DNA of 64,000 nt from Myroides indicus (GTDB taxonomy: Bacteria > Bacteroidota > Bacteroidia > Flavobacteriales > Flavobacteriaceae). The position numbers and the translations under genes were made by a program. Of the stretch, positions 26,067-48,214 are shown piece after piece; within the stretch, counting starts at the first letter, position 1, and each line of letters begins with the position of its first letter. The DNA lies in NCBI RefSeq assembly GCF_004364575.1, contig NZ_SOAG01000003.1, forward strand, positions 1 to 64,000, written 5' to 3'. The notes beneath the pieces are model-generated. The model had not been told where the DNA came from, made no database searches, and saw only the letters and a list, made by a program, of their open reading frames with translations.

Positions 26067-26138
26067 CTGCGTTGGATTGGGCATATGGGGACAAGGAAAG
26101 CTTGTTTGACCTGGGGAAATAGCTATTTGAACTGGTGG
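26067..26138 (+). repeat. Direct repeat, copy 1
   Basis: Begins CTGCGTTGGATTGGG and continues through GGGGACAAGGAAAGCTTG and TTTGAC.TGGGGAAA to CTATTTGAAC. It is matched by copy 2 about 350 bases away with a few substitutions and small indels. Confidence 0.75.
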
Positions 26139-26419: not shown

Positions 26420-26487
26420 CTGCGTTGGATTGGGGATATGGGACAAGGAAGGCTTGTTTGACTTGGGGAAAACACCTATTTGAACAG
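26420..26487 (+). repeat. Direct repeat, copy 2
   Basis: Shares CTGCGTTGGATTGGGG, GGGACAAGGAAGGCTTG and CTATTTGAACAGG with copy 1. It lies some 60 bases beyond the proposed guide end of the RNA at 26546-26645. Confidence 0.75.
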
Positions 26488-26545
26488 GCTGTTGTTTATC
26501 TGATTAGGAGATCAAATTTTTTGAATACTTAGGCATAATAATAAG

Positions 26546-26645
26546 TGAGCCCACGCATTGTATATGTTATTTACATTTAGTGAGTGTTATATTAAACCTC
26601 ACCTTACGGGCGTACAAGCGCCCTCAACACCAGATTGTCAATCTG
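26546..26645 (-). ncRNA. Candidate Cas12f/TnpB-type guide RNA (scaffold plus guide)
   Basis: Read on the minus strand, this begins at a 7-bp hairpin (CAGATTG-A-CAATCTG, 26631-26645) spanning the dCas12f stop codon. Next is a GC-rich stem GGGCG-CTTGTA-CGCCC (26608-26623), then GTAAGGTGAG and a second stem GTGAG/CTCAC (26598-26602 with 26580-26584). It ends TAAATGTAAATAAC at 26566. The stem-CUUGYA-stem followed by a UAAxGUxGAG-like strand strongly resembles published Cas12f tracrRNA/sgRNA cores, and the AAC end resembles scaffold-guide junctions. The next 20 bases (ATATACAATGCGTGGGCTCA, 26565-26546) are the likely guide. Boundaries, promoter and processing are inferred. The position overlapping the 3' end of the effector gene matches TnpB omega-RNA practice. 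Confidence 0.7.
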
Positions 26646-27735
26646 TAATAAGTTCTATTCCTACTTTGTCTGCTTTATATTTTATTTTAGTTATTAATTC
26701 ATAATAACTCCAGTTTCTCAATACAAACTCTTCTTCTTTTGCTATTTCAATTTTATTTTGTTGATTTAATAATATTAGTGTTCCAGCTTGATGTTTAACA
26801 CAAAAATCGATTAACTTTTTGCTGTATAGGTGTATGCGATGGTTGACGTAATTACTTTCTGTTTTGTTGTGATTGTTCACTGCTTTTAATTTTCTTTTTC
26901 TTCCTTTTCCTGATTTAGCATAGGTTGCTCCTACTTGTGTTCGTTTGCGAGATGCTTGTATAGCTAATCTTCTGTACAAAAATTCTTCTTTGGTACCTAT
27001 AAAATATCTGGCTTTACCTATTTTTACTACTAAAGGATACTCAACGGATAAGGAAGCTTCGACAATTATTTCTGGTTTTAGGCAATGTATTTCCATTTTA
27101 ATTTCAACTACCGCTAACCAAAATATTTTACCTTCCTTTAGTTTTATATGAGAAGTGCATAGTTTGATTTCACTATTTATAACTTTTTCCAACAGCGTTT
27201 TTTTGTCAGTAAAATCTTTTCCTAAATACGTTTTAAAAGGAATTTGAAACAAGCGGAAACAAAATGCTTTTTTTTCAGCATTATATGATAATCCACTGAT
27301 ACCTTCAAGTCCGAAGGGAAATGCCATGTCTCTCCTAAAATTTTTTAACGAACGTTCTCCAGTCCAATATTCTTTACTTTCTTTTTTAAAAAGGGTTATT
27401 AATGTATTATTTAAACAGGATAATATGTTTGTTGGGACTTCACCTTTAAAACGATCTGACACTACACGATAAGTTGTATTGATACGTGAGCGCTGCAATA
27501 TTCCGCTTTCGTCTTTTTTTTCATCGGTCAATTTGTATTTGATTCCTTCTGACAGATAAAAGAATTCTTTTATCATCTCTTGTATATAAAGATAAGAAAC
27601 TATTAAATTTGCGGCTCTAAAACATCTATTTTGCCATCTGTAAAGGGTATCCAGTGCTTCTTTTCTTTCTTCTGTTGTAGGAAGGTCAATCAATAACTGG
27701 ATTTTTCGGGTTAACTTTAATCTTGGTTGTTCCAT
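26638..27735 (-). CDS. Nuclease-dead Cas12f/TnpB-like RNA-guided DNA-binding protein
   Basis: A 365-residue protein whose C-terminal half aligns by eye with the TnpB/Cas12f RuvC region: a WLAVVEIKME strand (206-215), RuvC-I at 223-239, IGTKEEFLYRRLAIQ and GKGRKRKLKAVN bridge-like segments (246-287). These are followed by N.VNHRIHLYSKKLIDFCVKH, RuvC-II (AGTLILL, 317-323) and the NWSYYELITKIKYKADKVGIEL helix. The RuvC-I Asp is replaced by Ser228 (EASLSVEYP where GVDLGIxYP is usual) and the RuvC-II Glu by Leu323. The chain ends at residue 365 exactly where the YTS..C..C zinc ribbon and RuvC-III Asp normally begin. Cleavage should be impossible while RNA and DNA binding may persist. The N-terminal half (1-200) fits the REC/WED region. 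The gene follows the sigma gene by 20 bases and overlaps the guide RNA. The role in RNA-guided transcription is inference. Confidence 0.85.
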   Translation of the reverse strand: MEQPRLKLTRKIQLLIDLPTTEERKEALDTLYRWQNRCFRAANLIVSYLYIQEMIKEFFYLSEGIKYKLTDEKKDESGILQRSRINTTYRVVSDRFKGEVPTNILSCLNNTLITLFKKESKEYWTGERSLKNFRRDMAFPFGLEGISGLSYNAEKKAFCFRLFQIPFKTYLGKDFTDKKTLLEKVINSEIKLCTSHIKLKEGKIFWLAVVEIKMEIHCLKPEIIVEASLSVEYPLVVKIGKARYFIGTKEEFLYRRLAIQASRKRTQVGATYAKSGKGRKRKLKAVNNHNKTESNYVNHRIHLYSKKLIDFCVKHQAGTLILLNQQNKIEIAKEEEFVLRNWSYYELITKIKYKADKVGIELITD

Positions 27736-27755
27736 ATCAAAACAGATTATAATGA

Positions 27756-28523
27756 TTATTTCATATTGTACTGAGCAAGCTTATAGGCTGTCATAAATTC
27801 TTGGTGTACTTGTTTTTGGGACAGATTAAGTTTACCGGCAATTGCTGCAAAGGAAAATTTATTTTCGTATCTCATTTTTAAAATTAAAGACTGTTTTTCT
27901 GTGATACCTACTTGCGTTTTTGTATGAGCAGCTATTTTTATTTTATTCTCAAGCTTGTTTTCCTTGTTTATTATCTTTTTAATATCCTCAATAGTACGTT
28001 TAATTTCGTTACTGGTTTCTGTAATTCCTTTTCCCATTACTTTGGCAATCGCTTTATAGTGAAAGCCATATTTTAAGCACAACTCTATCAAATGCTTTCG
28101 CTCTGCACTTAAAAGTGGTAAAACTTTTATAACTTCTTCAAATTGGTTTTGATTTATTTCTTGCTCTTTCAGGTTTTGGATTACATCTGCCGGATCATAT
28201 CCTGCTAAATAGCTTTGATAATTTTCATAACTCTCCAAAGACCTAACTGTTTTAAAAAACTTATTTCGAGGTTTGGCATAATGTGAGAAACATTCTCTTT
28301 TCATCACAAATCTCAAGAAAAAATAGATATGCATGGGATCTCTGATTCTGTCTCTACAATTCCATAATTTTAAAAAAGTATCCTGTACCAGGGTTTCTAC
28401 AACAAATTCGTCATCAATTATTTTTTTGCCCAACCAAAAAATACTTTTCCCATACCGAGCATAAATTTGTTGTAAAACGTCAGGATTACCGTTTTTTAAT
28501 AATTCAAAATTTGTTTTCATCAT
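27756..28523 (-). CDS. ECF-type sigma factor linked to dCas12f, with extra C-terminal HTH
   Basis: A 255-residue sigma-70-family protein. Region 2 spans about residues 10-85 (PDVLQQIYARYGKSIFWLGKKIIDD..VVETLVQDTFLKLWNCRDRI..YFFLRFVMKRECF), with the core-RNAP-binding helix well kept. Region 4 spans about 128-187 (LLSAERKHLIELCLKYGFHYKAIAKVMGKG) with a weak recognition helix. A further 50 residues (205-252; GITEKQSLILKMRYENKFSFAAIAGKLNLSQKQVH) look like a second region-4 HTH, unusual for ECF factors, which end after one. No FecR-type anti-sigma or SusC gene lies nearby, so it is an orphan. Immediate co-transcription with the dead Cas12f suggests that promoter choice is delegated to the guide RNA. 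MM start: either ATG is possible. Confidence 0.85.
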   Translation of the reverse strand: MMKTNFELLKNGNPDVLQQIYARYGKSIFWLGKKIIDDEFVVETLVQDTFLKLWNCRDRIRDPMHIYFFLRFVMKRECFSHYAKPRNKFFKTVRSLESYENYQSYLAGYDPADVIQNLKEQEINQNQFEEVIKVLPLLSAERKHLIELCLKYGFHYKAIAKVMGKGITETSNEIKRTIEDIKKIINKENKLENKIKIAAHTKTQVGITEKQSLILKMRYENKFSFAAIAGKLNLSQKQVHQEFMTAYKLAQYNMK

Positions 28524-28802: not shown

Positions 28803-29216
28803 ATGGAACATATTAAGAAAAAACATATCGGGCGCAACATTTGCCGCATACGAGAAATGAAGGGCATGAAGCAGGAAACTCTTGCCGAATTATTGGGTAT
28901 TAGCCAACAAAAAATGTCAGTCATCGAAAATACTGAAGAGTTAGACGATTCTAAACTACAGGAAATTGCCAATGCTTTGGAAATTCCCGCAATTGCTATT
29001 AAAGAATATTCGGATGAAAGAATGATTAATTACGTAAATAATTTTTATGATAATAGTTCATCACAAGGGAACAGCTTTAATCAAGGACTTTATACATCTT
29101 TTAATCCGTTAGACAAACTTGTGGAAACCTACGAAGAAAATAGAAAGCTGTATGAGCGTTTGCTTCAGGCAGAAAAAGAAAAGATTACCTATATAGAGCA
29201 ATTGCTTAGAAAATAA
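28803..29216 (+). CDS. XRE-family helix-turn-helix regulator
   Basis: A 137-residue DNA-binding protein. The Cro/CI-type HTH occupies about residues 8-66 (IGRNICRIREMKGMKQETLAELLGISQQKMSVIENTEELDDSKLQEIANAL). A Ser/Asn-rich linker and a C-terminal coiled coil (LDKLVETYEENRKLYERLLQAEKEKITYIEQLL) likely to mediate dimerisation follow. It is divergent from the sigma-dCas12f operon and convergent with the end of the polysaccharide locus. I recall similar small XRE proteins beside Bacteroidota capsule loci, so it may regulate either neighbour; sequence alone cannot decide. Confidence 0.85.
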   Translation: MEHIKKKHIGRNICRIREMKGMKQETLAELLGISQQKMSVIENTEELDDSKLQEIANALEIPAIAIKEYSDERMINYVNNFYDNSSSQGNSFNQGLYTSFNPLDKLVETYEENRKLYERLLQAEKEKITYIEQLLRK

Positions 29217-46879: not shown

Positions 46880-48214
46880 TTACAATCTATCATCAGCAAT
46901 TCCTTTTTTTAAAACACTTTTTGCATCAAAAACAATCCCTGGCTCATTAACCAGAGAGCGAATATCAAGGTTTTTAAATTCCTGATGAGCTGTCATTAAT
47001 AATACGCCACTATATGGACTTGCTGTTAAACCGTATCGATGATCTGTTCTTAAATACCTGTGTTGTTTTAGTCTGTCTATCTCAGTGATTATCTCAATTC
47101 CATATTCTTCTTTTACCTCAACAGGATTTACCCATGGATCGTACACATCAACTTCGATTCCATAGGAGCTTAATTCTTTGTAAATCTTAGCTACCTTTGT
47201 ATTACGAGTATCAGGGCAATTTTCTTTAAAAGAAAAACCTAATAATAAAACCCTGGAACGACTGACATCTATTCTTTTTTGAATCATCAGTTTAACAACT
47301 TTATTTGCAATAAACAAAGGAATTTCATCATTTACGCGTCTTCCCGATAGAATAACATCCGGATAATATCCTAATTGAATGGCTTTATGCGCTAAATAGT
47401 AAGGATCTACCGAAATACAGTGTCCTCCTACCAATCCCGGCTTGAACTTTAGAAAATTAAATTTTGTACCCGCAGCTTCTAAAACTTCGTGGGTATCAAT
47501 ACCAATTCTGTCAAAAATTAATGCCAGTTCATTTACAAAAGAAATATTAACATCACGCTGTGCATTTTCAATTACTTTTGCTGCTTCAGCCACTTTTAAT
47601 GAGGGAGCTAAATGTGTGCCTGCCTTTATAATTTTCTTATATAAGTTATCTATTTTTACTGCAACTTCAGGAGTAGAACCTGAAGTTACTTTAACAATAG
47701 TTTCTAACGTATTAATTTTATCCCCGGGATTAATGCGCTCAGGAGAATATCCTGCAAAAAAATCTTCATTTAACTTCAACTGAGAATACTGTTCTATCAC
47801 AGGGATACATTCTTCTTCGGTACAACCCGGATACACCGTAGATTCATAAATGACAATATCTCCTTTTTTAAGGACTGAAGCTATTAACTTTGAGGCTTGT
47901 TTTAAAGGGGTTAGATCAGGTGCATTAAATTCGTTAATCGGCGTGGGAACAGTTATAATATAAATATCAGCTTGTGTCAGACTATCTAAATCAGCACTTG
48001 GAAAATAACCTTTTACTCCTTCTGAAATTTTATATTCTGAAAGAGCTGTTTTTAACTGCTCTCCCTCTACTTCTTTTGTAGAATCTTTTCCTTGTTCTAA
48101 TTCTTCTATCCGCTTTTCATTAATATCATAACCAACAACCGGAAAATGTTTAGAAAATGCTATCGCTAAAGGTAATCCTACATATCCTTGACCTATTACT
48201 GCGATTTTTTTCAT
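46880..48214 (-). CDS. Nucleotide-sugar dehydrogenase, TviB/WbpA type
   Basis: A 444-residue four-electron dehydrogenase that oxidises C6 of UDP-GlcNAc or a similar substrate to the uronate. Features are GQGYVGLPLAIAF (residues 8-20), YESTVYPGCTEEECIPV, PERINPGD, the VIENAQRDVNISFVNELALIF helix and the catalytic Cys in VGGHCISVDPYYLAHKA. The C-terminal lobe reads LLLGFSFKENCPDTRNTK. The PG-CTEE and HCI-DPYYL motifs separate it from the other dehydrogenase at 49.5 kb, which is the UDP-glucose type. This is the probable upstream end of the operon's sugar-precursor genes. Confidence 0.9.
   Translation of the reverse strand: MKKIAVIGQGYVGLPLAIAFSKHFPVVGYDINEKRIEELEQGKDSTKEVEGEQLKTALSEYKISEGVKGYFPSADLDSLTQADIYIITVPTPINEFNAPDLTPLKQASKLIASVLKKGDIVIYESTVYPGCTEEECIPVIEQYSQLKLNEDFFAGYSPERINPGDKINTLETIVKVTSGSTPEVAVKIDNLYKKIIKAGTHLAPSLKVAEAAKVIENAQRDVNISFVNELALIFDRIGIDTHEVLEAAGTKFNFLKFKPGLVGGHCISVDPYYLAHKAIQLGYYPDVILSGRRVNDEIPLFIANKVVKLMIQKRIDVSRSRVLLLGFSFKENCPDTRNTKVAKIYKELSSYGIEVDVYDPWVNPVEVKEEYGIEIITEIDRLKQHRYLRTDHRYGLTASPYSGVLLMTAHQEFKNLDIRSLVNEPGIVFDAKSVLKKGIADDRL

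Follow-up and report, generated by a model that had tools for sequence, protein, structure and literature searches.

The window analysed here, a stretch of 64,000 nucleotides from Myroides indicus taken at its full length, carries a compact cassette on its minus strand, in which a sigma factor gene (28523 to 27756) is followed after a gap of 20 bases by a Cas12f-like gene (27735 to 26638) and then by a guide-RNA scaffold and a guide, an arrangement that a sequence-only reading of this DNA had described and that we found complete. The first gene (27756–28523, minus strand) encodes an ECF-type sigma factor of 255 amino acids, the partner of the Cas12f-like protein. It matched the Sigma70 region 2 and region 4 models at or above their cut-offs and TIGR02937 above its cut-off, and its residues 1–253 aligned with PDB 9n9q_C, 'RpoE', with an E value of 2.6e-90. 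Divergently oriented, and with an upstream region in common with the sigma gene, lies a gene for an HTH_3 (Cro/C1-type) regulator (28803–29216, plus strand). The second gene of the cassette (26638–27735, minus strand) encodes a protein of 365 amino acids, residues 4–363 of which matched PDB 9n9c_A, 'Nuclease-deactivated Cas12f', with 617 bits and an E value of 9e-185. PDB entry 9n9q appeared among the matches of both proteins, end to end in each case, indicating that their relatives sit in one solved entry that contains dCas12f and RpoE.

The PADLOC Cas12f model also matched the larger protein (E 2.5e-49), the NCBIfam TnpB model did so below its cut-off, and Pfam assigned no family to it. The protein had been called nuclease-dead from its sequence, and an alignment to 9nzo_B ('Cas12f Effector'), a reference chain which we presume to be an active Cas12f, bore this out. 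Ser228 occupies the column of the RuvC-I Asp, a deletion has removed the stretch with the RuvC-II Glu, and the protein lacks the C-terminal part, in which the third acidic residue lies, stopping about 90 residues short of the end of 9nzo_B; these are the residues of 9nzo_B that we take to be catalytic. Among the aligned homologues, Ser or Thr replaces the RuvC-I Asp in 13 of 13. The genome of M. indicus holds one dCas12f and one scaffold. Inspection by eye of the open reading frames between 20 and 36 kb revealed no transposase, cas1 or cas2 and no TnpA-like frame, and no CRISPR-like repeat family was present between 22 and 33 kb, in agreement with the absences claimed earlier. Hits to the Cas12f and TnpB family models could be expected of an active type V-F CRISPR system or an IS605 TnpB element as well, but with the RuvC residues lost and neither an array, cas1/cas2 nor TnpA seen we give such an element next to no credence; likewise, although it is of the same effector family, we excluded the protein from CRISPR-Cas12f proper, since its nuclease residues are not intact and neither a CRISPR array nor adaptation genes were seen.

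Downstream of the dCas12f gene, at 26625 and thus 12 bases past its stop codon, begins a scaffold with three predicted hairpins (26557–26625, minus strand), which folds at -19.7 kcal/mol with a z score of -4.18 and was equalled by 0 of 200 shuffled sequences. A longer stretch that includes a hairpin at the stop codon (26537–26644) was not significant (z -1.54, 10 of 200 shuffles as good). Of the structure formerly described as overlapping the stop codon and continuing beyond it, the downstream part is more than chance, while the short palindrome over the stop codon itself (26631–26645, minus strand) is not kept in relatives. Alignment of 37 scaffolds showed compensatory changes in 8 of the 17 predicted pairs, and one such pair, changed from U-A to C-G in hairpin 1, is present in the window's own scaffold. 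In the aligned 3' flanks the conserved scaffold ends in ATACAA[C/T], after which the loci diverge into different guides, and we set the boundary between scaffold and guide at this point of divergence. The guide (26537–26556, minus strand, a length of about 20 nt being assumed) opens at 26556 with GCGTGGGCTCACTTATT and runs down to about 26537, so the interval first proposed for the cassette, which started at 26546, cuts it. Its first 17 nt (26556–26540) match leader elements of congeners, and GCGTGGGCTCWCTTATT or a close variant is the guide common to most loci. The sequence therefore predicts that the 3' end of dCas12f is joined by a guide-RNA gene. Just downstream of it lie two near-identical copies of a direct repeat (26067–26135 and 26420–26488), consisting of blocks of 23–32 nt with 83–96% identity at a spacing of 352–353, which possibly represent a small repeated element.

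Linkage and conservation of the cassette in relatives

A homologue scan with one genome per species yielded 30 dCas12f loci, 63–80% identical, in genomes titled as flavobacteria and in a few MAGs. A sigma frame lies directly upstream of dCas12f in 29 of the 29 other loci with upstream DNA, besides the window, the frame being cut by the contig end in one of them (L003) and by a run of N in another (L031); the thirtieth locus (L016) has 30 bases upstream. The gap between the two genes is mostly 1–2 bases, with 28 in L029 and 72 in L017. Linkage of the two genes in relatives, which had been named as a test of the proposal, thus held throughout. Using a covariance model, we found the scaffold in 33 of 33 distinct dCas12f-positive genomes and in 0 of 20 dCas12f-negative genomes of the family, the genomes being counted after 4 of 57 entries with the same coordinates had been merged (Fisher 5e-15, a value that ignores relatedness and comes from a model built partly from the tested genomes). 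With a 13-row dCas12f profile, all 20 negative genomes came out without dCas12f. In these many-genome searches for the scaffold, and in those for the leader described below, some of the first-look candidates were scored. What the DNA shows directly is the presence of three components, the order in which they lie, and how they are conserved and linked in relatives.

Within the family the system is sporadic, a dCas12f match occurring in 12 of 299 genomes, M. indicus itself and one broken copy included. Some genomes have many guide-RNA genes, with up to 14 matches per genome at E<=0.01, which partly form arrays behind dCas12f. In Leeuwenhoekiella (L022, L023, L024, L026) several guide-RNA genes with different guides stand behind dCas12f, most of these guides starting with GCGTG or GGCGTG. 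A scaffold with a guide was also seen with no dCas12f frame in front of it (L077, contig C10 of genome G004). In genome G282 (L117, L230, L231), counted among the 33, a broken dCas12f gene lies beside the scaffold and two leaders are found elsewhere.

In 2025 Hoffmann, Sternberg and colleagues reportedly described a dCas12f-sigmaE complex for RNA-guided transcription (PDB 9n9c, 9n9m, 9n9o, 9n9q), and their system is said to have the same gene order, a guide RNA after dCas12f and a G before the target. Since both proteins of the window match chains of 9n9q end to end, as full-length homologues, the locus belongs to this known kind; together with the linkage in 29 of 29 loci, this supports the earlier view of it as a further dCas12f-sigma-guide RNA system. 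It differs in that its proteins have diverged and that no target was found in its own genome, and the attenuator-like leader target and the guide arrays are results of the present comparison. We consider it likely, with a probability of about 0.82, that the sigma factor, dCas12f and the predicted guide RNA form one complex that would start transcription at guide-matched DNA behind a 5'-G. The complex itself we infer from the solved relative 9n9q, which holds dCas12f and RpoE together.

Guide-matched sites in a structured leader element

Candidate targets were sought by searching the guide 17-mer in 17 genomes, with Gelidibacter (L013) left out. With up to 3 mismatches allowed, the search gave 144 hits, a number that includes the guides, and the reversed control gave 109, so that only near-exact hits are informative. 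Besides the guide-RNA genes, a hand count yielded 15 sites with at most 1 mismatch in 10 of the 17 genomes, and all 15 fell in one kind of leader element, with a G before the site. In seven dCas12f loci the guide site precedes dCas12f by 948–1018 bases, which places it upstream of the sigma gene, and covariance model R1 detected the leader in front of the sigma-dCas12f operon in 14 of the 26 loci whose DNA is readable there, a count that omits L003, L012 and L016, with too little DNA, and L031, with 440 N. A viral contig with the G and the 17-mer carried it within an open reading frame and had no leader, and we took this match as chance.

We collected 79 copies of the leader, 76 of them unique, without filtering for a G at position -1; the first 28 had been filtered for this G and for a CCAGT motif. 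The two strands of its outer stem, which lies outside the model used for finding copies, are hypervariable yet match each other: the mean longest Watson-Crick helix was 7.17 within a copy and 3.37 with shuffled partners, 0 of 1000 shuffles being as high, and 49 distinct 5' strands had at least 5 pairs. A second hypervariable stem behaved alike (5.79 versus 3.14 shuffled). Further parts of the leader are the stem A:A' and the pairing ACTGGTA/TACCAGT, the latter varying in few copies. In the 28-copy alignment, the set of A:A' and a small middle hairpin was paired in 95.3% of cells, with 5 double-change pairs (0 of 500 shuffles). For the alternative pairing A':A'', 98.2% of cells were paired, a level that 0 of 500 shuffles reached, its covariation being weaker (3 double-change pairs, 19 of 500 shuffles as high; 134 of 500 for pair types), and 65 of the 76 leaders have a run of five T close to where A'' ends. 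Energy prediction gave a mean of -44.8 kcal/mol for the antiterminator segment, which is the longer one, and of -30.0 kcal/mol for that of the terminator. Because A' is shared by both, the two predicted folds are mutually exclusive, and the modelled leader is predicted to fold either as an antiterminator or as a terminator.

Attenuators of the trp and riboswitch type are leaders with a terminator and an antiterminator, and the present element resembles them in its mutually exclusive stems with a common arm and in the T-run that follows the last stem in 65 of 76 leaders. It differs in that it matches no Rfam family and that one of its arms is at the same time the predicted target of dCas12f. 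No Rfam family matched seven leader loci at E<=0.1; in the window, the part between 25.9 and 29 kb had no hit at E<=1, and a search of its full length at the gathering scores had none either. In Flavobacterium psychrophilum, 64 structured 5' regions including Flavo-1 have been reported (PMC9723704); according to the part of that report considered here they are likewise flavobacterial 5' structures, partly without Rfam hits, and its section 19 names no SusC leader, the lists being placed in its supplements.

By the rule used, 5 of the 79 leaders had no downstream frame, and of the remaining 74 frames 55 were scanned at the protein level, the others being 15 dCas12f frames behind a sigma gene and the frames of L083, L085, L186 and L188. 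Among the 55 proteins we found CarboxypepD_reg in 30, TonB Plug in 28, sigma region 4 in 11 and FecR in 1, the others being mixed; outside dCas12f loci, then, the leader mostly precedes SusC-like genes, predicted to serve nutrient uptake. The leader was present in 29 of the 33 distinct dCas12f-positive genomes and in 5 of the 20 dCas12f-negative ones, one of these weakly (Fisher 6e-6, with a model built from dCas12f-positive genomes), and besides M. indicus it was not found in three other dCas12f-positive genomes, G007, G015 and G016. It is thus a common but not a defining predicted target of dCas12f-sigma systems, and since leaders exist without dCas12f they are not simply dCas12f promoters. 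In the genus of the window, 26 of 61 genomes had the leader, M. indicus not being among the positives. Eight of the ten best congener leaders stand before SusC-like frames as judged by eye, and two have no clear one in the DNA at hand; the guide of the window matches nine of these ten at 17 of 17 positions, with a G before the site. Congener G143, the only leader-bearing congener profiled for dCas12f, has leaders and no dCas12f. Genome G035 (L153–L158) has six leader copies and neither dCas12f nor scaffold, and five of its six leaders precede a family of small frames of 110–122 amino acids instead of SusC, one tested member of which had no Pfam hit.

In 75 of the 76 unique leaders of relatives a G stands at -1 of the guide-matched arm A', and positions -2 (58 G among 76) and -3 vary more. 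This constant G is no independent proof of a target-adjacent motif, because position -1 was located via GGCGTGGGCTC and the G also pairs in the terminator. Some guides follow leader variants within a genome, guide GGCGTGTCATCCCACTT, for instance, going with leader GCGTGTCATCCGACTT in G321. Moreover, the odd leaders GCGTGTCATCCG (G321) and GCGTGACATTCG (G319) have matching odd guides, with raw match counts of 11/12 and 10/12, and these two cases suggest coevolution of guide and target. For the other odd leaders (L170, L184, L186, L188) the best guides read reach raw counts of 8/12, and for the leaders of G116 and G323 none of the guides read matched well, the best reaching 5/12 and 6/12. Many guides have no match in any leader. 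One such second class of guides, CCTTCCC... / AAAGCCTTCCCC..., which matches no leader element, recurs in several genomes (L210, L211, L213, L113, L228, L227, L020, L027).

Binding at A' could also be read in other ways. Being of the same sense as A', with which both A and A'' pair, the guide is complementary to these two arms. The guide RNA might thus act on RNA, by pairing in the nascent leader with A'' (or A) and so deciding in trans between terminator and antiterminator; a sigma partner and a G that constantly precedes the site, however, point to DNA, and we hold this to be improbable. TldR repressors are nuclease-dead TnpB proteins that are not known to act with a sigma partner. By analogy, dCas12f might serve as an RNA-guided roadblock at A', the sigma factor merely expressing the pair, for binding within the leader would block read-through and TldR proteins, RuvC-dead RNA-guided DNA binders of TnpB/Cas12 descent like ours, do repress (PMC13418256). 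We see only a slim chance of this in view of the tight and conserved link to a dedicated sigma factor whose solved homologue shares entry 9n9q with that of dCas12f. The part of that source considered here mentions no sigma partner of TldR (PMC13418256), whereas the present kind has a sigma gene in every locus with upstream DNA, and on this ground we excluded membership in TldR.

Possible role of guided initiation at the leader

In the genome of M. indicus itself we found no site that matches the guide 16-mer with 2 mismatches or fewer. A leader search in which 150 of 388 candidates were scored gave none at E<=10, the 11-mer seed turned up no convincing site, and no leader was found before the genome's own sigma gene, where model R1 over the window between 26 and 30 kb gave noise only. 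With one mismatch, GGCGTGGGCTC had five hits besides the guide versus three in the control. Two sets of candidates were rejected: window positions 47941–47956 (plus strand, 3 mismatches), which lie inside a frame (46880–48214) that by eye is UDP-sugar dehydrogenase-like, and the matches of GGTATRCCAGTACC with up to 2 mismatches, which numbered 16 versus 9 for the reversed control and showed by eye no other part of the leader in about 150 bases around each. As the same model finds the leaders of congeners, a blind search is less likely than a true absence or a gap in the assembly, which consists of 79 contigs, within the limit that only part of the first-look candidates was scored, and the target here may accordingly lie in a gap or be lost.

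This lack of both leader and guide site, the sporadic distribution in the family and the presence of leaders without dCas12f in G143 of the same genus would all suit a horizontally acquired dCas12f-sigma-guide unit that sits in M. indicus as an idle or decaying passenger and, with its target leader absent, regulates nothing. On the other hand, both reading frames are intact, scaffold and guide are conserved with a compensated pair, and an assembly in 79 contigs could miss a leader; we regard such a passenger as unlikely, though worth keeping in view.

For a working complex of sigma factor, dCas12f and guide RNA, the leaders of relatives suggest the following course of events. dCas12f with its guide RNA would find and open A' behind the G, the sigma factor would bring RNA polymerase to this guide-matched site, and transcription would start downstream of A'; in the original dCas12f-sigmaE work the start reportedly lies at a fixed, short distance downstream of the site. 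A transcript starting past A' would be without one arm of the A':A'' terminator, and guided initiation would thereby escape attenuation and switch on SusC-like uptake genes as well as the system's own operon. Tentatively, and with rather less than even confidence, we propose that the guides are copies of one arm of an attenuator leader of SusC genes that is widespread and undescribed, that a guided start behind this switch arm prevents the terminator, and that the system is a CRISPR-derived, programmable bypass of an older RNA switch, with feedback on its operon and guide arrays tuned to leader variants. The leader as target may be the new part of the finding.

The cassette adds a member to a newly described class of natural RNA-guided transcription. 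For this class our comparison supplies predicted natural targets, namely the structured leader that precedes SusC-like genes and the system's own operon. It yields a testable claim as to how guided initiation would defeat a terminator, and it offers for study a structured leader without an Rfam family that also occurs in genomes without dCas12f. The leader as target also suggests why guides stay conserved across species.
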